Positions 7,044 through 52,440 of a DNA stretch of 64,000 nt are shown here, piece after piece. The DNA is from Bradyrhizobium ottawaense. GTDB taxonomy: Bacteria; Pseudomonadota; Alphaproteobacteria; Rhizobiales; Xanthobacteraceae. The notes under the pieces are model-generated. The model worked only from the letters and a program-made list of their open reading frames with translations. It searched no databases and had not been told where the DNA came from. Numbering within the stretch: position 1 is the first letter of the stretch; every line of letters starts with the position of its first letter. The stretch is from NCBI RefSeq assembly GCF_002278135.3, contig NZ_CP029425.2, positions 7,106,001 through 7,170,000 of the forward strand, given 5' to 3'. A program made the translations under genes and the position numbers.

Positions 7044-7295
7044 ATGGATACGATTGCCCGCACCCCCCAGCAAATCGGCGCCGGGATCAGGCGCTACCGG
7101 CGGCAGAAGAAGCTCACCCAGGGGGACCTCGGTGAGAAGATGCATGCGCGTCAAGCGACGGTCTCGAAGCTGGAGGCCGGTGAACCTGCAACGCAGCTGC
7201 GCATCTTGATGGATGCGCTGGCCGCGCTCGACCTCGAGCTGGTCATCCGGCCGCGCACCAAATTGACGGCTGAAGCGATTGAGGATCTGTTCTGA
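7044..7295 (+). CDS. hipB: HipB-like antitoxin, Xre-family HTH regulator
   Basis: This is an 83-residue protein with a lambda-repressor-type helix-turn-helix at about residues 11-65 (GAGIRRYRRQKKLTQGDLGE, then the recognition helix region ARQATVSKLEAGE). Size and layout match HipB: a dimeric DNA-binding antitoxin that represses its own operon and holds HipA inactive. Its stop overlaps the hipA start (TGATG), so the two are translationally coupled. Three regularly spaced palindromes upstream are the likely operators. The gene is intact. Confidence 0.92.
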   Translation: MDTIARTPQQIGAGIRRYRRQKKLTQGDLGEKMHARQATVSKLEAGEPATQLRILMDALAALDLELVIRPRTKLTAEAIEDLF

Positions 7296-8614
7296 TGGCG
7301 CGTCGCCCTGCCCGTGCGCCGCTCAACGTCTACCTCAACGCACGGCTGGTCGGGCGGCTGCGGCGCGAGAGCAGTGGCGCAATCGATTTCCAGTATGACA
7401 AGCAGTGGCTCGCGTGGGAAAATGCCATCCCCGTTTCCGTGTCGCTGCCATTGCGGGAGGATCGTTATATCGGCGATCCCGTCGTCGCTGTTTTTGACAA
7501 TCTTCTGCCCGATAATGACGACATCCGCCGACGCGTCGCCGAACGCGCGCATGCTGATGGCGCCGATGCTTACAGCCTGCTCTCCGCCATCGGCCGCGAT
7601 TGCATCGGGGCGCTGCAATTCCTTCCCGACAGTGCCGCACCCGGGGGCGCCGGCGCCATTGATGGCCGCGCCGCTAGCGATCAGGAGATCGCCGCCATTC
7701 TCGGCAACCTTGCCAGCAATCCGCTCGGCATCGGCCCCGACCAGGACTTCCGCATTTCTCTCGCGGGCGCGCAGGAAAAGACAGCGCTGCTTTACTGGAA
7801 AGACAAGTGGCACGTGCCTCATGGCACGACCGCAACTACGCACATTATCAAGCCGCAGATCGGGAAGTTGCCGAACGGAATCGACCTGACCGGCAGCGTT
7901 GAAAACGAGCATCTGTGCCTTGAGCTGGTTGCGGCACTCGGCTTGCCTGTCGCCAAATCAAGCATCATCGATTTCGCCGGGCGCCGCGTGCTCGCAGTTG
8001 AGCGGTTCGATCGCATCTGGACGCGCGACGGCCGCCTGTTGCGGCTGCCGCAGGAAGACTGCTGCCAGGCGCTGTCCGTTCCACCCGCGCGAAAGTATGA
8101 ATCCGATGGCGGACCCGGCATCCGCAAAATCTCGGATTTCCTCAAGGGCAGCGATACGCCTGAGGACGACCAGGCCATTTTCTTCAAGGCGCAGATCGTG
8201 TTCTGGCTGCTTGCCGCCACCGATGGCCACGCGAAGAATTTTAGCATTCATTTGGCGCCGGGCGGTCGTTTTCATCTTGCACCGCTTTACGACATCATTT
8301 CGACCCAACCGAGCTTGGACGCTGGACAGATCAGCCAAAACCAAATGAAGCTGGCCATGGCGATCGGCAGCAACCGGCATTACATCGTCCACACGGTTCT
8401 CGGCCGACATTTCGTGCAGACTGCGAAAAGCTGCGGTCTACCCGACAAAACAGTCAAGGTTGTCATCCAGCAGCTCGGCGATACAGCCGCAAAGGCCATA
8501 GATCAGGTGCTGAATGCGCTTCCAAAAGGATTTCCGGAGAAGATGGCCATATCGATTGCTGATGGCGCAAAGCGCCGTGTGAATTCGCTGGCTGTGCTCA
8601 AGAGTAGTGAATGA
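7295..8614 (+). CDS. hipA: HipA-like serine/threonine kinase toxin
   Basis: This is a 439-residue protein that is recognisably HipA from end to end. The N-terminal HipA_N domain is followed by the P-loop segment RISLAGAQEKTALL, with Ser155 in the place of the E. coli autophosphorylated Ser150. THIIK (Lys186), RLPQEDCCQ, KYESDGGPGI, the catalytic Asp310 in ATDGHAKN and the metal-binding Asp333 in LYDIIS follow. E. coli HipA phosphorylates glutamyl-tRNA synthetase and causes growth arrest and persistence. The same activity is inferred here because all kinase residues are kept. It is translated in a coupled way with hipB, and no disruption is seen. Confidence 0.93.
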   Translation: MARRPARAPLNVYLNARLVGRLRRESSGAIDFQYDKQWLAWENAIPVSVSLPLREDRYIGDPVVAVFDNLLPDNDDIRRRVAERAHADGADAYSLLSAIGRDCIGALQFLPDSAAPGGAGAIDGRAASDQEIAAILGNLASNPLGIGPDQDFRISLAGAQEKTALLYWKDKWHVPHGTTATTHIIKPQIGKLPNGIDLTGSVENEHLCLELVAALGLPVAKSSIIDFAGRRVLAVERFDRIWTRDGRLLRLPQEDCCQALSVPPARKYESDGGPGIRKISDFLKGSDTPEDDQAIFFKAQIVFWLLAATDGHAKNFSIHLAPGGRFHLAPLYDIISTQPSLDAGQISQNQMKLAMAIGSNRHYIVHTVLGRHFVQTAKSCGLPDKTVKVVIQQLGDTAAKAIDQVLNALPKGFPEKMAISIADGAKRRVNSLAVLKSSE

Positions 8615-9898: not shown

Positions 9899-9914
9899 TG
9901 TCAGTTCGGCAACA
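9899..9914 (+). promoter_or_regulatory. candidate NifA upstream activator site TGT-N10-ACA
   Basis: TGT (9899-9901), ten bases, ACA (9912-9914) matches the NifA consensus exactly. Its centre is about 95 bp upstream of the start predicted from the -24/-12 element at 9977-9990, within the usual range for NifA. It lies in or beside the end of the IS481-type remnant, so a chance match cannot be excluded. Confidence 0.5.
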
Positions 9915-9976
9915 AAGTGTCACCAAGTGGACGATACGCAGGGTCAGAAAAACGAAAAATCAGCAATCTTCAATTC

Positions 9977-9990
9977 GGCACGCCTCTTGC
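9977..9990 (+). promoter_or_regulatory. sigma-54 (RpoN) -24/-12 promoter
   Basis: GGCACGCCTCTTGC has the invariant GG and GC elements in exact -24/-12 spacing (GGCAC-N5-TTGC). It lies about 85 bp upstream of the Nif11-type precursor gene and points towards it. Together with the upstream TGT-N10-ACA it suggests NifA/RpoN control, meaning expression in micro-oxic nitrogen-fixing bacteroids. Confidence 0.65.
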
Positions 9991-10073: not shown

Positions 10074-10439
10074 GTGTCGCGAACTGACGTAGAGCGATTC
10101 GTCAACGATCTGGGGAACGACGGTGGTCTGCTTGAACGCGTAAAACCAATTGCTACCGGCCTTGCATCGATTGTCGCGATCGGAAAGAGCCTCGGCTACA
10201 GCTTCACACCTGATGAAGCTAAAAGTTGCATTCGAGCTCGACAGAAGTTGACGACTAAACCGCTCGCCGGTGGCACTTTTAATTCGAGTGATACGATCTC
10301 GACCGGCGCTGTTCAGGCCCTTGCAGAGGTGGCCACGAGCGGCGCGCAAGCCGCGGAAGCGGCCTCTGACCACGCCACAGCAGTTGAGCCCGTTGCAGTT
10401 GTTGTGGTTGTTATTGTAGCGGTCGTGGCCGAGGTCTGA
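10074..10439 (+). CDS. Nif11-like leader RiPP precursor with valine-rich core
   Basis: This is a 121-residue small protein. Residues 4-55 fit the Nif11 leader fold seen in RiPP precursors: [18 protein letters not shown], then [18 protein letters not shown]. The remainder is Ala/Ser/Thr-rich and ends in a hydrophobic tail, [18 protein letters not shown], which resembles polytheonamide-type cores that are epimerised and C-methylated. I chose the GTG start because GGAG (10063-10066) sits 7 bases upstream; the in-frame ATG further up is followed by a stop. Two radical-SAM modifying genes of matching type follow on the same strand. A sigma-54 promoter precedes it. The core boundary and the product are inferred. 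Confidence 0.75.
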
Positions 10440-10477
10440 CATGCCTTCGCTCTGACCGCATCGGGTGGTTGCTCGAG

Positions 10478-10508
10478 GAGGCGATGAAGTGCGATGAAGT
10501 GCGATGAA
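10478..10508 (+). repeat. short tandem repeat GCGATGAAGT
   Basis: About three tandem copies of a 10-base unit, the last diverging, lie in the gap between the precursor and the first radical-SAM gene. No function is evident. Confidence 0.6.
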
Positions 10509-10529
10509 AACATGAAGTAAGCTTCGTCA

Positions 10530-12062
10530 ATGACACACGCTGCCGCCGAGCACTACCGACAGATTTTTGACCGGCGTACCCCGGAGCAACTGCGCACGCT
10601 ATCGCATCTCAAACGCTTCATGGAGCGGTTAGTCGGTGACGAGGAGTTCCGCAGGGCGCTTGCGGAGGCAATCGCCACCCCTCGAGCGGTAACAGAGCGG
10701 TACGGCATCAATGTGGATCCAATGGAGGTGCTGCCGCTCTGGCGCGGTGGCTACCAACAATACCGCTTCAAGCCGGAGTCTGCGCCGTGGCCGCTGGCTG
10801 TGATGTGGGATGAGTATCTCCGCGAGATGATGCGTCATCGCGACCTCTTGCGCGACGAAGGCGAGATGTCGACGATCAATCCTCGCTTTCATGCTTGGCG
10901 CGAGCGGCAAATCCGGCGCTGCAATGACCAATTGGGCGTGTCGGCGGCGTCGCTCACGCACCCCATAATCGCTTTCGAGCTAAGCGAAGGCTGCAGCGTC
11001 GGTTGTTGGTTCTGTGGCCTCTCGGCCGATCGCTTTACAGGCTATTACGACATAGCAAAGAGCATGCAGCGCTTTGGCGGGGCGTGGTTGGTGTCGCGAG
11101 CGAAATGTTTGGTTCTGCAGTCCGCACGGGCTTCTGCTACTGGGCCACAGATCCTATGGACAACCCACACTACGATCGCTTTCTGTTCGACTACTATCAG
11201 ATTACGGGCGCGTTACCGCAAACAACAACCGCAGCCCCACTCAAGGATCCGGCACTCACCAGGCACGTGCTCGGGCTCTTCAATCTATATCGCACGACGA
11301 CGAATCGTTTCTCCGTGCTGAGCAGGGCCCATCTTAATCAGATTCACACGGCCTTTTCGCCTGAGGAGTTGCTAGGAGTCGAACTCATCCTGCAGGGCAA
11401 GGAGGCGCAGACAGCAAAGGCCATGGTCGGGCGCGCGCGCGAGCGGAAGGAGAAGCGCAGGGGCGCTAACAAGGACGGTGCAATCGCCTTTCTGGAACGC
11501 AATCACACGACGATCGCCTGCGTTTCCGGCTTCCTCGTAAATATGCGGCAGGGGCGTTTACGACTGGTGACGCCGGTGCCGGGTAGCGATCGCTGGCCTC
11601 TCGGGTACCCGCATTCTGGGTGAACGCTTCTTCAGCACGCCTGACGGTTTCCGGGGCGGGCTGCAGAGCATGATCGAACAGTATATGCTCGAGAGCCCAG
11701 CCCATGACCTGCCGATCCGCTTCCGCAGGGACCTGCAATATAAGGCAGGGAACCGGTGCTTTCATCTTCGCTCACGCAACATGGAACACCGCGTGCTCGA
11801 CGACATCGCCCCGATTTCCGTTGGCCCTTTGATCGCGGACGGCAACTGCACAATGTCGGAGCTGGTTATTCGGGTCGCAGCTGACGGAACAACCCTCCTT
11901 GGGGTCGCCGACTTGCTCGATCAGTTGTACATGACCGGGCTGATCGAAGAAGACCTCGACGACTGCTTCATCTGGCAGACCGGTGACTGGACGACGAGGC
12001 GCATCGAAGGAGTCAAACACGCGTCCTCCCATACGGGTGCAGATTGTGCCGATTCGCATTGA
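10530..12062 (+). pseudogene. radical-SAM RiPP maturation epimerase (PoyD-like), two frameshifts
   Basis: The first frame starts at 10530 with IFDRRTPEQLRTLSHLKRF, typical of the RiPP amino-acid epimerase family. It reaches the 4Fe-4S motif CSVGCWFC (Cys155, 159, 162). Near 11055 the frame breaks; the protein continues as KEHAALWRGVVGVASEMFG in the frame that runs to 11623. A second break near 11605 (WPLGY, then ILGERFF) moves it to the frame ending at 12062. Spliced together the parts give one protein of about 510 residues. Known PoyD-type enzymes convert L- to D-residues in the precursor. The position after a Nif11-type precursor supports this role. As sequenced it is inactive. Confidence 0.75.
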
Positions 12063-12762
12063 GGCACTACTTAGCCTCAAGCGACAGCAGCATCCCACCA
12101 TCCAGCAGTGCTGAGCGCGATGACATGCCGCTCCGCATCCACGGTCCCTGGCTTCGTGGCGTGCACAACCGGCGTGACAAAAGAAGACCAGCGGGGTTCC
12201 GCGCTTGCGGCTTCGAGCCAAGCCCTCATTTCGGGCATCAGCGGTGCACGACTGGGACGCACGCGGTTAAGTCGAGAATGGCTTGCCCCGCCCAGTGGTC
12301 AATCAAATGGTTCTGCCAGACGACGGTGCCGCTGGTTCCGGAGAGGTCGTGGCTTTTCGTGGCGCGCCACTGCAACTTGCACTGGCGGTGATCCCTGCTA
12401 GCGGACGACGACGCGCCTGAAACTTTGATAGGTCCATGTGAATGACGACGTCAGTCCGTTCATCAATGATGAAAAACAGCGAGTCTCACTCGAGGGTGGC
12501 GCCGCTAAATACCAGAGCGGAGCCGCGTGCAGGCAATTATTCCCCGTTCGGCTCCAGCACTCTCTGCTTGCTCATGCCGTCCAGTCGCCGGGCAACGAAC
12601 GTGACGCGGAAATCGTGGCTCGAAGCGGGCTGCCCACTAGCCGAATTAGCGACTTCACGTTCACGGCTCCGGTCAGGAGTCGCGCAGAATTCACTTTGCC
12701 GTCCGGCGCATGAGACTATGGCATGGCGAACGCACCTGTGCGCACATCATGAATAACGTGGA
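12063..12762. other. 700-base gap between the two radical-SAM genes
   Basis: Only short open frames are present, on both strands, and none is recognised. A minus-strand stretch around 12077-12262 (PLMPEMRAWLEAASAEPRW) reads like part of a real protein, but I cannot place it. It may be an old insertion that separated the two RiPP genes. Confidence 0.35.
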
Positions 12763-13488
12763 ATGATTATGAGTATCGCTGTGCCAATCGTCCTAGTCAA
12801 CATGCCTGTGTCGGCAGTCGAAAGGCCGTCACTGGCGCTTGGTCTGCTGAAATCAGCGCTGACCCAGGCTGGACTGCAATCCACCATAGCATATGCCAAC
12901 ATCTGGTTTCTAGAATACATAGGCATCGCCGACTATGGACCTCTTGAGAATTGCCCGCCAGAGGAGGCACTGGTTGATTGGCTGTTCGCGGGCATTGCTT
13001 TTCCCGGCTTCGAACCCGAACAAAACGCCTTCCTCGACCTCTATTTCGAGCGCAACCCGATACACGCAGGCAAAGGTATGGCCGAGCGTCGCGCGAATTT
13101 CCTTAGGCTGCGCTCGCTCATCGGCGGGTTTATCGACTGGACGGCTGACAAGATATTGGCGAAGCGGCCGGCTATGGTCGGGTGCAGCTCGACCTTCACC
13201 CAGCATGTCCCCTCGCTCGCGTTGCTGCGCCGGCTGAGCGAGCGCTCACTTGATCTTGTCACCCTCATGGGTGGAGCGAACTGCGAGTCGGTAATGGGGC
13301 GCAGCACTCACGCGCGTTTCCCATGGGTCGACTATGTCGTGTCGGGCGAGGCCGACGCACTGATCGGCCCGCTGTGTTGGGACATCCTAAATCGCGGCAG
13401 AGACATCCCGCCTGCTGACCTGCCATTTGGCGTTTTCGGCCCGACGCATCGCGAGGCCGGCTATCCCGCGGCGTCGACGCGCGACTTA
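12763..13488 (+). pseudogene. B12-dependent radical-SAM RiPP maturase, 5' part
   Basis: This is the N-terminal part of a RiPP maturation radical-SAM protein of the cobalamin-binding type. VLVNMPVSAVERPSLALGLL opens a B12-binding fold that runs to VGCSSTFTQHVPSLAL and LMGGANCE, and WVDYVVSGEADALIGPL follows. The frame is interrupted after Leu (TTA, 13486-13488) by an IS5 element inserted in the TA. It resumes exactly at GTG 15776 after the nested IS701. Members of this family C-methylate unactivated carbons in RiPP cores; that activity is inferred from the family and from the valine-rich precursor upstream. Confidence 0.8.
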
Positions 13489-14322
13489 GGGTCTGTACCT
13501 AAATAGCGCCACGTGATTCTCTTGCCTACGTGTTGATTCGGGGGCGAGAGAATGCGCGCTGGTTTGTTTTGGCTGAACGACAGGCAATGGGCGCGTATCG
13601 AACCGCATCTGCCGAGGGGACTGACGGGGCCGGATCGGGACGACGACCGACGCATCGTCAGCGGCATCATTCACATGCTGCAATCGGGTGCACGATGGCG
13701 TGATTGTCCACGTGAATACGGCCCTTACACGACGATCTACAATCGCTTCAATCGCTGGGCCAAGCGAGGACGATGGTGCGCAATCTTCGAAGCGCTGGCC
13801 AAGCCTGGCGAAGACGGCGTCGTACTGTCGCTCGACTCGACCTCGATTAAAGCTCACCGGTGTGCCTCCGGCGGAAAAGGGGGGAGCACAATCAAGCAAT
13901 CGGCCGCTCGCTCGGAGGCCGCACGACAAAAATCCATGCGCTGAGCGATCCGCTCTGCCGGCCGGTCGTCCTGCATCTGACTCCAGGCCAGGATGCCGAT
14001 ATCGCTGCGGCTCCCGATGTCCTGGCGCTCGCGCCACCCATGAGCGTGCTCCTCGCCGACAAAGGGTATGATGGCGACAAGCTTCGCGGCGCAATCATTC
14101 GTCGTGGCGCCAAGCCCGTAATCCCCAATAAATCTAACCGTGTCGTCATCCATCGCTTCAACAAACGCGCCTACAAAGGACGAAATGTCATCGAACGCTG
14201 CTTTTGCAGGCTCAAGGACTTCCGGCGCATCGCCACGCGATATGACAAGCTCGCCCGTAATTTTTTGGCCGCTGTTCATCTCGCCGCTCTCGTCGCATAT
14301 TGGCTCAATTGAGTCTGGACCC
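13489..14322 (+). mobile_element. IS5 family (IS427-type) element, copy 1, 834 bp
   Basis: The element is bounded by GGGTCTGTACC and GGACCC with a TA target duplication (13487-13488 and 14323-14324). Nearly identical 834-bp copies lie at 33157-33990 (inverted) and 50833-51666. It carries two overlapping transposase frames. This copy is inserted inside the B12-type radical-SAM maturase gene. Confidence 0.93.
13552..14312 (+). CDS. IS5-family transposase, orfA + orfB (probable -1 frameshift)
   Basis: orfA (13552-13944, 130 residues, with RIEPHLPRGLTGPDRDDDRR and VLSLDSTSIKAH) overlaps orfB (13860-14312, 150 residues, with LADKGYDGDKLRG and the YKGRNVIERCFCRLKDFRR motif). The two parts make a complete DDE transposase when joined by a -1 shift. 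The A4G6 tract at about 13876-13885 is the likely slip site. Compared with the other copies this one has Cys instead of Gly in ERCF(C/G)RLKDF and Leu instead of Arg in GRS(L/R)GG. Function is probably retained. Confidence 0.88.
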
Positions 14323-14325
14323 TAG

Positions 14326-15772
14326 CACTACTTTGGCAGATTGTTGATTTTGCCGCGTTTTATAGGATTCCCGAATCAATTTTTCAATGATTCATGGGTG
14401 GTCGGCTCTTGGAGGGCTGACCATGCCGGGATGGGAAGACGAACTCGAACGCTGGCTGATGCCGTTCTTGGACCGGCTGGGTCATAAGACCCGGCAGCGG
14501 ATGTGTCCTCTGTATGTTGCGGGATTGATCGGTCCTGGCGATCGCAAGAGCGTTCAGCCGATGGCGGAACGCCTTGTCACGAGCAACTACGACCAGTTGC
14601 ACCATTTCATTGCCGACGGTGTCTGGGACGCGACGCCGCTGGAGACAGAGCTGCTCAACCAGGCGGACCGACTCGTCGGCGGCAGGGATGCGGTGCTGGT
14701 TATTGATGACACCTCACTGCCGAAGAAGGGTGAGCGATCGGTCGGTGTTGCGGCGCAATACGCATCGGCTCTCGGTAAAACTGCAAATTGCCAAACGCTG
14801 GTGTCTTTAACGCTTGCGCGCGGCGAAGTGCCAGTGATGGTCGCGTTACGTCTCTTTCTGCCTGACAGCTGGACAAGCGACATGCCCCGTTTGAAGCGCG
14901 CTCGCGTGCCAATCGAACACCGAACGCCACGGTCCAAGCCGGAGATCGCTTTGGCCGAGATTGACCGCGCGATGGCAGCCAACATGCGCTTTGGATGTGT
15001 GCTGGCGGATGCAGGATACGGCCTCAGCGCACCGTTTCGACAAGGGCTAACAGAGCGCGGGCTGGCCTGGGCGGTCGGTATCCCTCGGCACCAGAAAGTG
15101 TATCCCGTCGATGTGAAGCTCATTTGGCCGATCACCAAAGTCCGTGGCAAACCACGAAAGCACCACGTGCCCGATATCTTATCGATTGCGGCAGAACAAA
15201 TGCTGGCCAGCGCCAAATGGAAAACCGTGAGTTGGCGTAGCGGGACGAAAGGTCGGCTCAAAGCCCGATTTGCTGCCCTCCGTGTCCGCACCGCCGACGG
15301 CCCTCCGCAGCGGATATGGGATAAAGGTCAGCAGCATCTCCCAGGCGACGAAGTCTGGCTCATTGGCGAGCAACGTGCCTCCGGGGAGAGCAAATACTAT
15401 CTCGCCAATCTTCCGGCGACGACGGATCTGCGCACGCTGGCCGCCACCATCAAGGCACGGTGGATTTGTGAGCAGGCGCATCAACAGTTGAAGGAGGAGC
15501 TTGGACTTGATCACTTCGAAGGGCGATCATGGCAAGGTCTTCATCGCCACGCCCTTATGACAATGATTGCCTACGCCTTCCTGCAACATCGTCGCCTCGC
15601 ATACGCGGGGCGGAAAAAAAAGAATCAACGGGCCTCCGCCTCAACCAACCATGCCCGCCGTACGCCATGCCATCGTCGATCTCATCCTTCGGCCGCCGCC
15701 TCAGCAATGCCCATATTGCCGAAAGCAAATCCTTGAAAAACAGCGGCCAAAACACATTCTGCCAAAGTAGTG
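14326..15772 (+). mobile_element. IS701-family element nested at the IS5 right end
   Basis: Perfect terminal repeats CACTACTTTGGCAGA (14326-14340) and its complement (15758-15772) bound the 1447-bp element. A 4-base CTAG target duplication flanks it (14322-14325 and 15773-15776). That CTAG is itself made of the last IS5 base, the IS5 TA duplication and the next gene base, so this element inserted after the IS5. Confidence 0.93.
14387..15736 (+). CDS. IS701-family transposase
   Basis: This is a 449-residue transposase. Visible motifs include VLVIDDTSLPKKG (first Asp), FGCVLADAGYG (second Asp), and WICEQAHQQLKEELGLDHFEG near the C-terminus with the catalytic Glu. It lies inside intact 15-bp inverted repeats, and no frameshift is seen. 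A start at the ATG of MPGWEDELERW (14423) is also possible and closer to the usual family N-terminus. Confidence 0.92.
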   Translation: MIHGWSALGGLTMPGWEDELERWLMPFLDRLGHKTRQRMCPLYVAGLIGPGDRKSVQPMAERLVTSNYDQLHHFIADGVWDATPLETELLNQADRLVGGRDAVLVIDDTSLPKKGERSVGVAAQYASALGKTANCQTLVSLTLARGEVPVMVALRLFLPDSWTSDMPRLKRARVPIEHRTPRSKPEIALAEIDRAMAANMRFGCVLADAGYGLSAPFRQGLTERGLAWAVGIPRHQKVYPVDVKLIWPITKVRGKPRKHHVPDILSIAAEQMLASAKWKTVSWRSGTKGRLKARFAALRVRTADGPPQRIWDKGQQHLPGDEVWLIGEQRASGESKYYLANLPATTDLRTLAATIKARWICEQAHQQLKEELGLDHFEGRSWQGLHRHALMTMIAYAFLQHRRLAYAGRKKKNQRASASTNHARRTPCHRRSHPSAAASAMPILPKANP

Positions 15773-15775
15773 CTA

Positions 15776-17015
15776 GTGCCCCGCGCCGTGATCGAGAACA
15801 TGCGTGACCTGCCGCTGCCGGATTTCTCGGACTATTTTGCGGAGGTTGAGGCGTCGCTCTACGCCGACCGCATCCATGCTGGGCTGCCGATGGAGTTCTC
15901 TCGCGGCTGCTGGTGGGGCGAGCGCAGTCATTGCCTGTTTTGCGGGCTGAACGGCGGATCGATGACCTACCGCCAGAAGCCCGCGGGGCAGGCCGCAGCG
16001 GAGATGATTGAGATGTCGGCGCGCTACGGCTCGTCGCGCATCGAAGCTGTAGACAATATTATGGCCATTGACTACCTTGAAAAGGCGCTCCCTCACCTCA
16101 CCGCGCTACCCGAGAAGCTCGCGATCTTCTTTGAGGTCAAAGCCAACCTGAAGCGCCACGAAGTGGAAAAGCTGGCTGCCGCCGGCGTCCGCTGGATTCA
16201 ACCGGGTATTGAGAGCCTGGATACTCGTGTTTTGAAGCTGATGCGCAAAGGAACGACCTCAGCGCACAATGTTCAGCTGTTGAAGTGGTGCCGTCAGTAC
16301 GGCGTGCGGGTCAGTTGGAGTTTATTGTGGGGCTTTCCCGGCGAGTGTGATGCATGGTATGCGGAAATGGCCTCTTGGTTGCCGTTGCTGCATCATCTGC
16401 AGCCGGGACCTGCGGTACGCTTGCGATACCAGCGCTACAGCCCCTATCATTACACAGCTGAGAAACATGGACTGAAGCTGCTCCCGGCCGCCCCCTATCG
16501 CTACGTGTATCCGCTGTCGGAGCGCGATCTCTCGGAACAGGTATACTACTTCGAAGACAGCGAAGACCACGATGTCGGCGGCCATTTCAAACCGCCCGGG
16601 GCTAAATGCCGTCGCCAAGGGCATCGATGCCTGGCTGAAAGCCTGGAGGGGGCCGACTTTCTCTATGCTGTCGATGCAGGACAACGGCGACGAAATCATA
16701 GTCGAGGACACGCGAGCCATAGCAATCGAGCGCGAACACCGCGTCAGAGGCCTCGAGCGAGAAATTCTTCTGGCCGCGGACGAAGGCTCGCCTGAAACTC
16801 GCCTGTGCGATCGGCCGGGCGCGGCGAATGTAATGCAGGGCGAGATTGATGAGGCGATAGCTAACATGATCGCCCGCAAACTGATCGTACGGCTTGACGC
16901 GCGGCTGGTTGGGCTCGCGTTATGGCATCCATATACGCCAATCCTTCCCCTGACTGCGTTCCCTGGTGGCTATCTCGACCGACGCTCCACGCCAGTGGCC
17001 CTCCCGCGCGAATAA
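15776..17015 (+). pseudogene. B12-dependent radical-SAM RiPP maturase, 3' part (one frameshift)
   Basis: This continues the gene broken at 13488. VPRAVIENMRDLPLPDFSD leads to the radical-SAM cluster motif CWWGERSHCLFCGLN, a CX7CX2C spacing typical of this RiPP maturase family, and then to a TIM-barrel region (WIQPGIESLDTRVLKLMRKG, WSLLWGFPGE). Near 16598 the frame changes: HFKPPGAK in one frame, GLNAVAKGIDAWLKAW in the next. Removing one G from the GGGG at 16598-16601 repairs it. The second frame ends at 17015 with a C-terminal domain. Thus the gene has both IS insertions and a 1-base frameshift. Confidence 0.8.
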
Positions 17016-32830: not shown

Positions 32831-33156
32831 TCCGCCGTTTGCGGATTGGTGCCAGAGGATCAGACACAGCTTCACTGCTGGCCCAAAGTCGGCCGGGCCG
32901 GCCTGCCGCGGGCTAGAAGCGCAATGGTTGTGGCTTCCCAAAGACGAACTCCAGATCGCATCATGCACTCCGCTGCCCCTTCCTGTCCAATAACGAGCGC
33001 CTGCGCAAACGAAGCAAGCTGCGTGCCGCTCGAAGATGGAGATCCTCAAGCGGGTTTGTTCATGGTACATGCGTCCGGTTGTGGACATTGGTCCGAACCA
33101 GACAATCGAGTCCTTGGCAGTGATATCGGTAGTTGGTGGAACGCACGATTGCACTA

Positions 33157-33990
33157 GGGTCCAGACTCAATTGAGCCAATATGCGACGAGAGCGGCGAGA
33201 TGAACAGCGGCCAAAAAATTACGGGCGAGCTTGTCATATCGCGTGGCGATGCGCCGGAAGTCCTTGAGCCTGCCAAAGCAGCGTTCGATGACATTTCGTC
33301 CTTTGTAGGCGCGTTTGTTGAAGCGATGGATGACGACACGGTTAGATTTATTGGGGATTACGGGCTTGGCGCCACGACGAATGATTTCGCCGCGAAGCTT
33401 GTCGCCATCATACCCTTTGTCGGCGAGGAGCACGCTCATGGGTGGCGCGAGCGCCAGGACATCGGGAGCCGCAGCGATATCGGCATCCTGGCCTGGAGTC
33501 AGATGCAGGACGACCGGCCGGCAGAGCGGATCGCTCAGCGCATGGATTTTTGTCGTGCGGCCTCCGCGCGAGCGGCCGATTGCTTGATTGTGCTCCCCCC
33601 TTTTCCGCCGGAGGCACACCGGTGAGCTTTAATCGAGGTCGAGTCGAGCGACAGTACGACGCCGTCTTCGCCAGGCTTGGCCAGCGCTTCGAAGATTGCG
33701 CACCATCGTCCTCGCTTGGCCCAGCGATTGAAGCGATTGTAGATCGTCGTGTAAGGGCCGTATTCACGTGGACAATCACGCCATCGTGCACCCGATTGCA
33801 GCATGTGAATGATGCCGCTGACGATGCGTCGGTCGTCGTCCCGATCCGGCCCCGTCAGTCCCCTCGGCAGATGCGGTTCGATACGCGCCCATTGCCTGTC
33901 GTTCAGCCAAAACAAACCAGCGCGCATTCTCTCGCCCCCGAATCAACACGTAGGCAAGAGAATCACGTGGCGCTATTTAGGTACAGACCC
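33157..33990 (-). mobile_element. IS5 family (IS427-type) element, copy 2, inverted, 834 bp
   Basis: Same ends and length as copies 1 and 3, in opposite orientation, with TA duplications at 33155-33156 and 33991-33992. Confidence 0.93.
33167..33927 (-). CDS. IS5-family transposase, orfA + orfB (copy 2)
   Basis: orfA 33535-33927 and orfB 33167-33619 overlap as in copy 1 and need a -1 shift at the A4G6 tract. This copy has Glu instead of Ala in KLRG(E/A)IIRRG; other motifs are unchanged. Confidence 0.88.
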
Positions 33991-34194
33991 TAGTGCGCGC
34001 AAGCGCTCGTCAGCCCAGATGGCAATTGATGAGGGCGCGCCGCCTGTGTTCGATGGGACGGACCAGATGGTCGATCGCCGACGCCTAAGCTATGAAGAGC
34101 TGCCTGCCAGTTGTCCGCTAATGGCCCGCAACCCGACGCGTCCACACGATTATCAAGCGACGGCAGGCACTGCACTTTTCAATTCGGCTCGCTC
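33991..34194. other. gap between IS5 copy 2 and the effector remnant
   Basis: Possible decayed upstream part of the C48-type effector. Nothing is recognised with confidence. Confidence 0.25.
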
Positions 34195-41016: not shown

Positions 41017-42804
41017 TTATTGTTCTAGGCCGCGCTCTGCGAGCAGCCGGTGCATGACCTCGCCTTTGATCTCGCCTGCGATTTGGTTTCGGACTTGGGC
41101 TCCGAGCACCCGCTCGGCATCGACGTCGCCCACCAGACCATGTTCGGCCAGTCGCTGATCCAGACGGCTTTGGAACTCTTCGCCCATGGCTTCGACGAGC
41201 CGGTCTTGCATCGCTGCATGTTCGTCTGGAGCGATGCGCCTCAGCACCGTCTCCCAGGGTTGCCAGCGGCTTGCCATGAAGTCGGTGAACTGGCTTGCTT
41301 CCCGCTCCCGGACCAGGTCGAGCGCCTCCGTCGCATCATCCTCGCTTACGTGAGAGACCGCCAGGAAGCGCATGTCAGGGGCGACGTGACTGAGCTCCAG
41401 CGGCTCGCGCAGCCGATGTTGATAGGCCAGGTAGACTTCGATGTCGTCTACGTTCGGGTTGCCGCTGGCGAGCGAGTTGATCCTGTCGCGCGCGATCTCG
41501 TCCAACGCCTCCAAGCGGAAGGCGACACGGCCGCGCTGGATCAGATCGCCAAGCCGATCGTCATATACCCCGTCCTCGACGTCAGCGTTGAGGCGCGCGG
41601 TCTGCATACCATTCCAGTGCAAGGTGACACGATCCTCGCAGCTCGCGTTGGCCTCGGACGCCTGCGCAAAGAACTGCTCGCGCAATGTCGGATTGGCGGC
41701 CGCCTGCTGCAGATCATCAGCCACTGCCTGCCGAAACTCGTCATTGCCGTAGTTCACGGTCTCTCGTAGCCTCTCCAGGAACTGTGCGTAGTCCTGGGCG
41801 CCTGGCTCATCCGCAAAGTGCTGCCATTTGGCCAGCGTCGCCGGGTCGTCTGCGAGCCATTGCGCGGCAGCCTCATATAGAGATTGCTGCGCAAGCTGCG
41901 GTGGCGCTTCAGCCGTCGCCAGATTAGCGAGGACGTCGTCCGGCAGCGGGTTATCCCCGAACTCGAGATTCTCCAAATGCGGGTAGCTGAGACTAAGATT
42001 CGGTACACGCCCCTCAAGAAGATCCTCAGGCAGGCTGGTCAGCCGGTTACCGCTGAGATTGAGCGATTGGAGGGTGCTCGGAAGGGGGGCGGGGAGGTTG
42101 GCCAATTGATTGCTGCTGACATCGAGTTCAATGAGCCCCGATGGGAGGTAGTCGGGGAGGTCGGTCAGCTGATTGCCACTAACCGCGAGCGAGGTGAGCC
42201 TGCTCGGGAGAGCGTCCGGCAGGCTAGTTAGTCGGTTGTCGCTTGCGTTCAGGATCTCGAGCCCAGCCGGAAGGTTGGCCGGCAGACTGGTCAAGCTGTT
42301 ATCGGCCACCTCCAGCCGAGAGAGGGTCGCCGGAAGAGCGTCCGGCAAACTGATCAACCGGTTATGGCTAATGAGAAGATGCTGAAGACCGGGTGGGAAG
42401 CTAGCGGGCAGGCTGCTTAGCTCGTTGTGCCTGGCGCGCAGTTCCAGCAATCTTGGCGGCAGGGCGGCGGGCAAAGCGGTCAGGGAGAGGGAGGACAAAT
42501 CCAGCGAGTGCGAGCCAGTGTTGTCCGCCCCCCTAATTCGTGCGCGTCCCTGTCGCCGATTCTCGGCTTCGCCCTGCCCCTCTTCGGCCGCCCAGTTGTC
42601 CAGCAACTGCGCGCGCGCGGAGGCCGGGGTCCGATATCCTGTCATGGCTTCGAGCAAATCCGCCACGGCTCGGCTGAAGCCGCTGAGGTAACTTTCCTGC
42701 TCCCCCTCTTCAGAAGCGGCCGAGGAAGAACCTGCACTCCACTGAGCCTGTCCTGTGTTCATCAATATCTCCATCGCCAAAACAAGAATACCCCCGCTCC
42801 TCAA
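41017..42804 (-). CDS. nopM: type III effector NopM-like, LRR + NEL E3 ubiquitin ligase
   Basis: This is a 595-residue protein. The N-terminus is Ser/Glu-rich and unstructured, as in type III substrates. Residues about 98-285 hold roughly nine leucine-rich repeats of about 20 residues (pattern LTSLPDALPxxLxxLxVSxN). Residues about 300-595 match the NEL (novel E3 ligase) domain with the catalytic Cys389 in ANASCEDRVTLHW. Bacterial NEL effectors (IpaH, SspH, NopM of strain NGR234) ubiquitinate host proteins inside plant or animal cells. The start may be Met15 (42762, MNTGQAQW) rather than 42804. A tts-box-like site lies about 150 bp upstream, which fits TtsI control. No disruption is seen. Confidence 0.92.
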   Translation of the reverse strand: MRSGGILVLAMEILMNTGQAQWSAGSSSAASEEGEQESYLSGFSRAVADLLEAMTGYRTPASARAQLLDNWAAEEGQGEAENRRQGRARIRGADNTGSHSLDLSSLSLTALPAALPPRLLELRARHNELSSLPASFPPGLQHLLISHNRLISLPDALPATLSRLEVADNSLTSLPANLPAGLEILNASDNRLTSLPDALPSRLTSLAVSGNQLTDLPDYLPSGLIELDVSSNQLANLPAPLPSTLQSLNLSGNRLTSLPEDLLEGRVPNLSLSYPHLENLEFGDNPLPDDVLANLATAEAPPQLAQQSLYEAAAQWLADDPATLAKWQHFADEPGAQDYAQFLERLRETVNYGNDEFRQAVADDLQQAAANPTLREQFFAQASEANASCEDRVTLHWNGMQTARLNADVEDGVYDDRLGDLIQRGRVAFRLEALDEIARDRINSLASGNPNVDDIEVYLAYQHRLREPLELSHVAPDMRFLAVSHVSEDDATEALDLVREREASQFTDFMASRWQPWETVLRRIAPDEHAAMQDRLVEAMGEEFQSRLDQRLAEHGLVGDVDAERVLGAQVRNQIAGEIKGEVMHRLLAERGLEQ

Positions 42805-50418: not shown

Positions 50419-50832
50419 CCAACACTTCCCTGTATTGTCTCGGCCCACGACCGAGCGCCCTTAAGTTATCGCCGCAGCAAACCGTCGGGGCGGACCAGAC
50501 GCTAACAGCGACGCGCGCCGAGTCCGCCCCCGAGGATCATCGCAAGCGATTGGTGGTGATGCCGCAAAGAGAGCAAGTCGCGTGCCGAAGTGAATTCGCA
50601 GGCTATGCAGGCACTTCGTCGCGGCGTGTGGCGCCAAGTTGCTCACATTGGTCTCGATACCGACAAGGGCCACGTTACCCGAGAGTGGCCCGCTCGCGCG
50701 CTGAATGTGTACGCGCGGTGGCGCGTGCAGACCCGGCCCGTGTGATGTCAACAGGAAGCCCTCTGCGCTTCCCCGACTACGGCGCTGTGTCGCCGTTGAT
50801 TTTAATTTCACCGAGTCCTACTGATGGGACTA
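50419..50832. other. gap between the Omp25-like gene and IS5 copy 3
   Basis: This probably contains the promoter of the broken outer-membrane gene. Nothing else is recognised. Confidence 0.3.
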
Positions 50833-51666
50833 GGGTCTGTACCTAAATAGCGCCACGTGATTCTCTTGCCTACGTGTTGATTCGGGGGCGAGAGAATGCG
50901 CGCTGGTTTGTTTTGGCTGAACGACAGGCAATGGGCGCGTATCGAACCGCATCTGCCGAGGGGACTGACGGGGCCGGATCGGGACGACGACCGACGCACC
51001 GTCAGCGGCATCATTCACATGCTGCAATCGGGTGCACGATGGCGTGATTGTCCACGTGAATACGGCCCTTACACGACGATCTACAATCGCTTCAATCGCT
51101 GGGCCAAGCGAGGACGATGGTGCGCAATCTTCGAAGCGCTGGCCAAGCCTGGCGAAGACGGCGTCGTACTGTCGCTCGACTCGACCTCGATTAAAGCTCA
51201 CCGGTGTGCCTCCGGCGGAAAAGGGGGGAGCACAATCAAGCAATCGGCCGCTCGCGCGGAGGCCGCACGACAAAAATCCATGCGCTGAGCGATCCGCTCT
51301 GCCGGCCGGTCGTCCTGCATCTGACTCCAGGCCAGGATGCCGATATCGCTGCGGCTCCCGATGTCCTGGCGCTCGCGCCACCCATGAGCGTGCTCCTCGC
51401 CGACAAAGGGTATGATGGCGACAAGCTTCGCGGCGCAATCATTCGTCGTGGCGCCAAGCCCGTAATCCCCAATAAATCTAACCGTGTCGTCATCCATCGC
51501 TTCAACAAACGCGCCTACAAAGGACGAAATGTCATCGAACGCTGCTTTGGCAGGCTCAAGGACTTCCGGCGCATCGCCACGCGATATGACAAGCTCGCCC
51601 GTAATTTTTTGGCCGCTGTTCATCTCGCCGCTCTCGTCGCATATTGGCTCAATTGAGTCTGGACCC
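50833..51666 (+). mobile_element. IS5 family (IS427-type) element, copy 3, 834 bp
   Basis: Same ends as copies 1 and 2, with TA duplications at 50831-50832 and 51667-51668. It is inserted near the start of the orfA of an IS407-type element. Confidence 0.93.
50896..51656 (+). CDS. IS5-family transposase, orfA + orfB (copy 3)
   Basis: orfA 50896-51288, orfB 51204-51656, needing the same -1 shift. This copy has Thr instead of Ile in DDDRR(T/I)VSG; the DDE motifs are unchanged. Confidence 0.88.
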
Positions 51667-51668
51667 TA

Positions 51669-52440
51669 GGTTCACGGAAGAGCAGATTATCGCGGTACTG
51701 AAGGAACATGAGGCTGGGGCGAAGACAGCCGACTCGCTCGCAAGCACGGTGTTCCGAGGCGACGATCTACAGTTGGAAGGCCAAATTCGGCGGCATGGAC
51801 ATTTCCGAAGCGAAGCGGCTGATGGCCTTGGAAGAGGAGAACGCGAAGCTGAAGAAGTTTCTGGCCGAGCAGATGCTTGATGCGGCCGCACTTCGCGAGC
51901 TGGTTTCAAAAAATATAGTAGGGCCCGCCGCCAAGCGCGCTGCCGTCGCGCATCTTCAGGCCGTCATGAGCCTGTCGGAACGGCGGGCCTGCTCGATCGT
52001 GGGGGCGGATCGGAAGATAATCCGCTATCGCTCCAGCCGCCGCCGGACGCAGTTCTGCGGGGCCGATTGCGCGATCTCGCCAACGACCGGCGGCGTTTCG
52101 GCTATCGCCGGTTGTTCGTCCTGCTGCGGCAGGAGGGCGAGCCGTCGGGGATCAACCGGATCTACCGGCTTTATCGCGAGGAAGGGCTCACCGGTCCGCA
52201 AACGGCGGGCTCGCCGCAAGGCCGTGGGGACCCGTGACCCGATCCTGGTAGAGGCGAGGCCGAACGCGCGCTCGCTGGACTTCGTCCACGACCAGTTCGC
52301 CAATGACCGCCCCGTCCGCATCCTCAACATCGTCGACGAGAATACCTGCGCGCGATTCCAGAGACGTCGATCTCGGGCGGCAAACTGACGCCAATCGTCC
52401 AGCGAACGCTGGCAAGCCAGGAATGATCGTGTCCGACCAT
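51669..52440 (+). pseudogene. IS3-family (IS407-type) remnant
   Basis: RFTEEQIIAVLKEHEAGAKT begins right after the IS5. SEATIYSWKAKFGGMDISEA and KKFLAEQMLDAAALRELVSK (orfA) follow, then VGPAAKRAAVAHLQAVMSLS, SLDFVHDQFAN and KPGMIVSDHGTEFTS (orfB, second Asp). Frames change at least three times. Confidence 0.8.

Follow-up and report, generated by a model that had tools for sequence, protein, structure and literature searches.

A Nif11-leader peptide operon with a PoyD-type epimerase, probably under nitrogen-fixation control in rhizobia and recently killed in Bradyrhizobium ottawaense

Proteusins, a class of ribosomally synthesised and post-translationally modified peptides (RiPPs), are defined by a nitrile-hydratase-like (NHLP) leader; in polytheonamide the core is 48 residues long with an Asn/Gly pattern, and a dehydratase is among its genes. 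The window analysed here, 64,000 nucleotides (nt) of the single-contig 8.59 Mb genome of Bradyrhizobium ottawaense (G000:C1:7106001-7170000; G-numbers denote genomes, G000 being this one, and L-numbers fetched loci), holds a related set of enzymes behind a precursor whose leader is of the Nif11 type. The set consists of that precursor, a PoyD-type radical S-adenosylmethionine (radical-SAM) epimerase and a B12-type radical-SAM C-methyltransferase. At a probability of roughly 0.7, it represents an operon for a D-residue-bearing, Val/Ala-rich RiPP of the nitrogen-fixation stage, governed by a sigma-54, probably NifA, programme; the copy in the window was recently killed and is dead in this strain. 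The features are as follows.

9899..9914, + strand: TGT-N10-ACA element (NifA-type upstream activator site), 77 nt upstream of the -24 box
9976..9990, + strand: sigma-54 -24/-12 promoter CGGCACGCCTCTTGC, 98 nt upstream of the precursor start
10074..10439, + strand: Nif11-leader RiPP precursor, 121 residues, GTG start, intact, with a Val-rich C-terminal core
10530..12062, + strand: PoyD-type radical-SAM peptide epimerase, a pseudogene in three frame pieces (TIGR04517)
12763..13489, + strand: 5' part of the C-methyltransferase (radical-SAM, B12-type; TIGR03975)
13490..14325, start approximate, + strand: IS5-like element, IS4/5 family transposase (Pfam and comparison with L063)
14326..15773, ends approximate, + strand: second insertion sequence, DDE_5 transposase (Pfam and comparison with L063)
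15774..17015, + strand: 3' part of the C-methyltransferase with CX7CX2C and an extra frameshift near 16570 (TIGR03975)

The N-terminal domain of the precursor matches the Pfam Nif11 model (PF07862) at 38.9 bits, against a gathering threshold of 23.8, and its length and C-terminus are those given in the first-pass annotation of this DNA; an identical protein (100%) is encoded in L032, L035, L036, L037 and L063. Over 40 distinct precursors Val makes up 52% of the last 15 residues and Ala 24%, and Val, Ala, Ile and Leu together account for 90%; the L047 precursor, which reads only 53 residues, was left out of the alignment. This C-terminal stretch looks like a RiPP core, and its hydrophobic part is probably some 15-20 residues long. 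There is no GG ahead of the core in the window precursor; by eye, many relatives have AEAG or EKG at this point and others nothing obvious. The Sinorhizobium meliloti plasmid pHRB800 (L075, L079) carries four tandem precursor genes, one of them truncated, with nearly the same core, before a single epimerase and methyltransferase. A gene of the insulinase family is present some 20 kb from that cluster; pHRB800 is presumably the plasmid that restricts host range by way of an M16 peptidase.

Precursor and epimerase travel together. Counting duplicates, 53 of the 55 fetched loci have a related Nif11 precursor immediately upstream of the epimerase, as the window does; relatives in which the two are never adjacent, which would have refuted the first-pass annotation, are not what was found. 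The two loci without one, L038 and L039, hold distant epimerases and were set aside. Together with G111:C118, which was not among the fetched loci, they represent a separate type of PoyD relative in Bradyrhizobium, with NHLP-type exporters nearby on the contigs; the L038 and L039 epimerases show 35-36% identity.

The strongest link to nitrogen fixation, and one that is new here, is control of the sigma-54/NifA type. All 54 regions compared (53 loci and the window) have a sigma-54 box ahead of the precursor, and so do all 35 that are left after reduction to a non-redundant set by identity of the last 200 nt. The box stands at -110 to -75 in 33 of the 35 and at -155 and -166 in the other two; shuffled regions gave 0.1 of 35 with a box at -110 to -75, and none was found at 212 control open reading frames (ORFs) of at least 250 residues in L040-L064, counted from first-ATG starts with the cluster enzymes not excluded. 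The GG and TTGC of the box are invariant, though the search pattern itself made GG obligatory and permitted only TTGC or TCGC. Exact TGT-N10-ACA elements occur 20-150 nt above the box in nine of the 35 regions, the window among them, against 0.97 expected, and elements relaxed by one position in 25 against 5.2; these counts are not independent trials, because the upstream regions are related. The same or nearly the same element lies 77-78 nt above the box in L019, L021, L027 and L032, and NifA is the likely activator.

Ten further plasmid loci were compared. Six have the box (L065, L068, L069, L070, L075 and L076). In L066, from Rhizobium leguminosarum strain 3841, the precursor is preceded, at a distance of 0.3-0.5 kb, by a stretch that resembles a copied nifH promoter: it comprises a similar box, a TGT-N10-ACA site and roughly the first 20 codons of nifH. 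Further up in L078 there is a nifH-promoter-like stretch 87% identical to it, and L077 has none. On pRL10 a stretch with a truncated nifH start is present as an inverted duplicate, 96% identical (L066:9555-9933 and 10901-11279). Three of ten annotated plasmid regions viewed contain nif or fix genes: nifHDK and nifS in NGR234, nifHDKENX in NXC14, and fixABCX-nifA-nifB in R. leguminosarum A1.

Published data bear on when these genes are expressed. In strain DOA9, nif11 expression was reduced in RpoN mutants in microaerobic nitrogen-fixing culture, and its site, TGGCACGCTCCTTGC, is listed at -76 (PMC13207237); L024, which may be DOA9 itself, has an identical site that runs from -90 (first base) to -76 (last base). 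A 'Nif11 family protein', pRL100099 (14.45 kDa, pI 8.86), was detected in 4-week bacteroids of R. leguminosarum 3841 (PMC7105596), and the L066 precursor computes to the same mass and pI. Locus tag and mass identify MCHK_12735 (12.54 kDa), from 4-week bacteroids of Mesorhizobium huakuii (PMC10454058), as the L069 precursor. Genes reduced in the nodules of an M. huakuii mutant include two for Nif11 and, with an adjacent number, an 'amino acid epimerase' (PMC8436566); that paper puts the genes on pMHa and the L069 record is named pMHb, so the locus match is not settled. Nif11 has also been counted as a nif gene family (PMC7709874), and none of the relevant passages of these five papers treats the Nif11 protein as a modified peptide. 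A paper on NifA in P. phymatum, taken up as a candidate, proved to be a name match only.

These papers, which class Nif11 among nif genes or amino acid metabolism and detect it as a protein in bacteroids, could be taken to mean that Nif11 is itself a small nitrogen-fixation protein and that the radical-SAM genes serve another purpose. This is very unlikely: an epimerase follows the precursor in nearly all fetched loci, the C-terminal 15 residues have the composition of a core, and pHRB800 sets four precursors, one truncated, before one enzyme pair. Searches of the literature, confined to open-licence papers, found no described example of such a nodule RiPP, in agreement with the first-pass annotation. 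The enzymes work by established chemistry; within that literature, a minimal operon of this kind, its short and very hydrophobic core and its nif-type control are undescribed.

The operon is tied to symbiotic genomes. Of 265 Bradyrhizobium genomes searched with TIGR04517 (cut-off 325 bits), 28 have an epimerase match, 25 of them over the cut-off. All 28 carry nodC over cut-off, compared with 135 of the 265 in the genus; the hypergeometric probability of 1.4e-9, for an overlap read by eye from two genome lists within Bradyrhizobium, ignores shared ancestry and is optimistic because relatives share islands. In the genome of the window nodC lies about 37 kb before it, which bears out the symbiosis-region setting first proposed. 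An order-wide search of 397 genomes (nodulators among them not counted) gave four matches, two in genomes of the same genus and two short and weak, and none convincing outside the genus. Among 72,556 plasmids searched with the epimerase, 60 matched: 58 from Sinorhizobium, Rhizobium, Mesorhizobium or Aminobacter, and two cyanobacterial ones at 38-40% identity. Loci in named genomes number 25, from Bradyrhizobium, Mesorhizobium and Sinorhizobium/Ensifer, in a scan limited to close relatives. The maker had been pictured as an ancestral Bradyrhizobium-type strain; the cluster is not confined to such a strain, since Mesorhizobium, Sinorhizobium/Ensifer, Rhizobium and Aminobacter have it as well.

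Intact copies, which the first-pass annotation proposed to look for, are present and maintained. Eleven of the 28 carriers have a whole epimerase and a whole methyltransferase side by side, seven a whole epimerase without a methyltransferase, and one a whole epimerase with a broken methyltransferase; nine lack a whole epimerase of this type, one of which, G052, has a whole epimerase of the distant type. Whole Bradyrhizobium relatives of this type score 550-571 bits against TIGR04517. The median ratio of nonsynonymous to synonymous substitution (dN/dS) of intact epimerases is 0.22, 0.18 and 0.23 in three groups and 0.26 over 348 pairs, and that of the methyltransferases is 0.21 over 43 pairs; both enzymes are under purifying selection. 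Cys 155, 159 and 162 are invariant in 27 intact epimerases, as are Cys 131, 203 and 331, and CX7CX2C is present in all ten whole methyltransferases examined as well as in the window. The epimerase sequence matches no solved structure at an expect value (E) of up to 0.01.

The ORFs that recur among the 28 loci are the precursor, the epimerase and, in a subset, the methyltransferase; the others are overlapping-frame artefacts, transposases or neighbours of small subsets. Loci with and without a methyltransferase separate imperfectly on the epimerase tree. A single gain of the methyltransferase on that tree is rejected: its distribution takes five changes by parsimony, at least two of them forced by well supported branches; gain and loss were therefore mixed. 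Acetyltransferase-like pieces lie between epimerase and methyltransferase in L022, L023, L025-L028, L031, L046 and L064, and no such gene was found in the window cluster. A very long ORF, by eye like a nonribosomal peptide synthetase (2147 residues in L043), lies 8-10 kb from the epimerase in L040, L041, L043 and L046. HipA-like genes stand 1.5-9 kb from the cluster in the window (7295-8614, Pfam), in L010 (16274-17566, by eye) and in L069 (22011-23240, annotation), which may be coincidence. Elsewhere in the window, 41017-42804 on the minus strand encodes a 595-residue leucine-rich-repeat protein, which we take to resemble rhizobial type III effectors.

Two partners were considered and rejected. 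The NHLP exporter family is over cut-off in 11 of the 28 carriers, always on another contig or more than 3 Mb away (judged by eye; draft contigs may abut). An M16 pair, which in NGR234 and some Mesorhizobium loci is encoded no more than 12 kb from the cluster and was a candidate leader peptidase, has a relative in all 56 genomes tested (the 28 carriers and 28 nodC-bearing genomes without an epimerase match), so there is nothing cluster-specific about it.

Export does accompany the cluster in some hosts. In Aminobacter and M. helmanticense an acetyltransferase-like gene, an NHLP secretion protein, a C39-type exporter and a second ABC protein lie in line with it. Such a full export system is what would be expected of a bacteriocin-type RiPP that rides symbiotic plasmids and islands and acts on competing rhizobia, nif-type control merely timing its release. 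The patchy presence and repeated decay of the cluster point the same way, as does the prediction that 50 of the 60 plasmid carriers are conjugative. Yet no immunity-like gene or exporter is common to the loci, and a sigma-54 promoter suggests the enclosed nitrogen-fixing stage, which would be a poor moment for competition. A bacteriocin is possible, though clearly the less probable explanation.

In the window both enzymes are broken, and their family assignments are nevertheless plain. The epimerase matches TIGR04517 in three pieces (168, 274.7 and 58.9 bits) and is therefore frameshifted; each piece falls under the cut-off because the gene is broken, and the CxxxCxxC motif is present. The methyltransferase matches TIGR03975 in three pieces of 233.7, 395.4 and 61.3 bits, one of them over the cut-off of 281.85 bits, and no other methyltransferase over that cut-off was found elsewhere in the genome. 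These are the radical-SAM families named beforehand, with both cysteine motifs, and not unrelated ones. The two insertion sequences, about 2.28 kb in all (13490-15773), were delimited by comparison with L063, from B. huanghuaihaiense, which matches the window at 99.95% identity between 9801 and the insertion point and has no insertion. The IS5-like element has three copies in the window (about 13487-14325, 33154-33992 and 50831-51669), the latter two 99.6% identical to the first. Damage had been hinted at by a mention of repaired proteins; the genes are indeed broken, and the hint came with no account of the frameshifts and insertions.

The history of the damage can be partly read from relatives. 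The three-piece epimerase is common to G000, G025, G027, G052 and G057; G012 and G103 each share one of its two break positions, and G093 and G263 have their breaks at other sites. G027, G052, G057 and G103 retain a whole methyltransferase; in G000 and G025 it is split alike. Thus the epimerase was the first to break, in a shared symbiosis region, and the methyltransferase followed. A second Nif11 and PoyD pair lies 125 kb away in the same genome (G000:C1:7241300-7243230; L010:7301-9270), without an adjoining methyltransferase. Its precursor, with the core LVAIVLLIVVVVAVAA, scores 24.5 bits against TIGR03798; its epimerase scores 532.8 bits against TIGR04517, is frameshifted near the start with the N-terminal part out of frame, and has a longest frame of 448 residues from an internal start. 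In L042 (B. huanghuaihaiense) the second-pair precursor is identical and the epimerase 99.5% identical.

With both epimerase copies frameshifted, the methyltransferase split and the same epimerase lesion in five genomes, the gene set is very probably a functionless relic in this genome. The intact precursor and promoter of the window stand against this, and the 448-residue frame of the second epimerase makes residual activity conceivable. A relic here is compatible with the nitrogen-fixation reading, which concerns strains with intact copies.

In such strains the following sequence of events may be envisaged. At low oxygen, with nitrogenase switched on, RNA polymerase with RpoN, presumably activated by NifA, would transcribe the Nif11-leader precursor. 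Guided by the leader, the PoyD-type enzyme would convert several L residues of the short Val/Ala/Ile/Leu core to D, and in one branch the radical-SAM methyltransferase would add C-methyl groups, after which a protease would remove the leader. The predicted product is a very hydrophobic peptide of mixed D and L residues, about 15-20 long, that would enter membranes as a ribosomal counterpart of gramicidin-sized peptides. More speculatively, and with low probability, a gramicidin-like, partly C-methylated helix of this length might span the bacteroid or plant-derived membrane and alter its permeability to ions or ammonium, or might meet host nodule peptides. The lack of an adjacent exporter in Bradyrhizobium would fit a peptide acting in the producer's own membrane.

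Several observations weigh against a RiPP operon of the nitrogen-fixation stage. No product, D residue or methyl group has been observed; the proteome entries are, in the tables concerned, protein identifications silent on modification (PMC7105596, PMC10454058), and the DOA9 expression data come from free-living microaerobic cells (PMC13207237). The window precursor reaches only 23.7 bits against the NCBIfam model TIGR03798, below its curated cut-off of 32.3, and 15 of the 40 distinct precursors have a charged residue within the last 12. An exact NifA-type site is missing from 26 of the 35 upstream regions, so another sigma-54 activator may act in some; the regulator dependence found in print, in DOA9, is on RpoN. 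Among the ten further plasmid loci the box is imperfect in L067 and was not found within 400 nt in L066, L077 and L078; seven of the ten annotated plasmid regions have no nif or fix gene within 12-20 kb. Only 28 of the 265 Bradyrhizobium genomes, and of the 135 with nodC, carry the epimerase, which is therefore not required for nodulation, and no exporter was found beside the Bradyrhizobium clusters.

If the nitrogen-fixation reading is right, rhizobia at the nitrogen-fixing stage of the legume symbiosis have a dedicated peptide of exotic chemistry, with a precursor that transcriptome and proteome tables list as a 'Nif11 family protein'. The reading can be tested directly in R. leguminosarum 3841, NGR234, DOA9 and M. 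huakuii, all of them standard strains, and natural-product chemists would gain a peptide family that is new, probably epimerised and made under a known condition. Because its presence is patchy and it has decayed repeatedly, the cluster might also help to explain why fixation differs between strains and hosts.

Comparison with known systems places the operon between several of them. It shares with the rhizobial NifA/sigma-54 regulon the -24/-12 box, in part the TGT-N10-ACA element, and RpoN dependence in DOA9 (PMC13207237), but the passages concerned treat no peptide-maturation operon as a member. Phazolicin is likewise a ribosomal modified peptide from a rhizobium, but an azole-modified translation inhibitor made by other genes. 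The cyanobacterial Osp, Avp and Plp systems resemble it in leader-guided epimerisation of a C-terminal core and in their short operons; the rhizobial cores look far more hydrophobic, and their genes are sigma-54-linked. Gramicidin-type D/L peptides, which are non-ribosomal, are hydrophobic Val/Ala/Leu chains of a length similar to that of the predicted product, whereas the rhizobial peptide would be ribosomal and would owe its D residues to a radical-SAM enzyme; alternation of D and L is only conjectural.

The closest likeness is to polytheonamide and the PoyD-type proteusins, which share the PoyD-family epimerase, the radical-SAM C-methyltransferase and a Val/Ala-rich core. It is nonetheless highly improbable that the cluster encodes a true polytheonamide-type proteusin. 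The leader is of the Nif11 type, and the NCBIfam matches of the window precursor at E up to 1 include none to an NHLP leader, so the proteusin parallel first drawn fails at the leader. The core, first called polytheonamide-like, is Val-rich as stated, but is short, some 15-20 residues against 48, nearly all Val, Ala, Ile and Leu, and without the Asn/Gly pattern. No polytheonamide-type extra genes stood out among the recurring ORFs of the 28 loci, which were searched with no dehydratase model. A sigma-54 promoter and symbiotic hosts further set the rhizobial genes apart. By leader type, then, the cluster is not a proteusin; by its enzymes it probably works like one.

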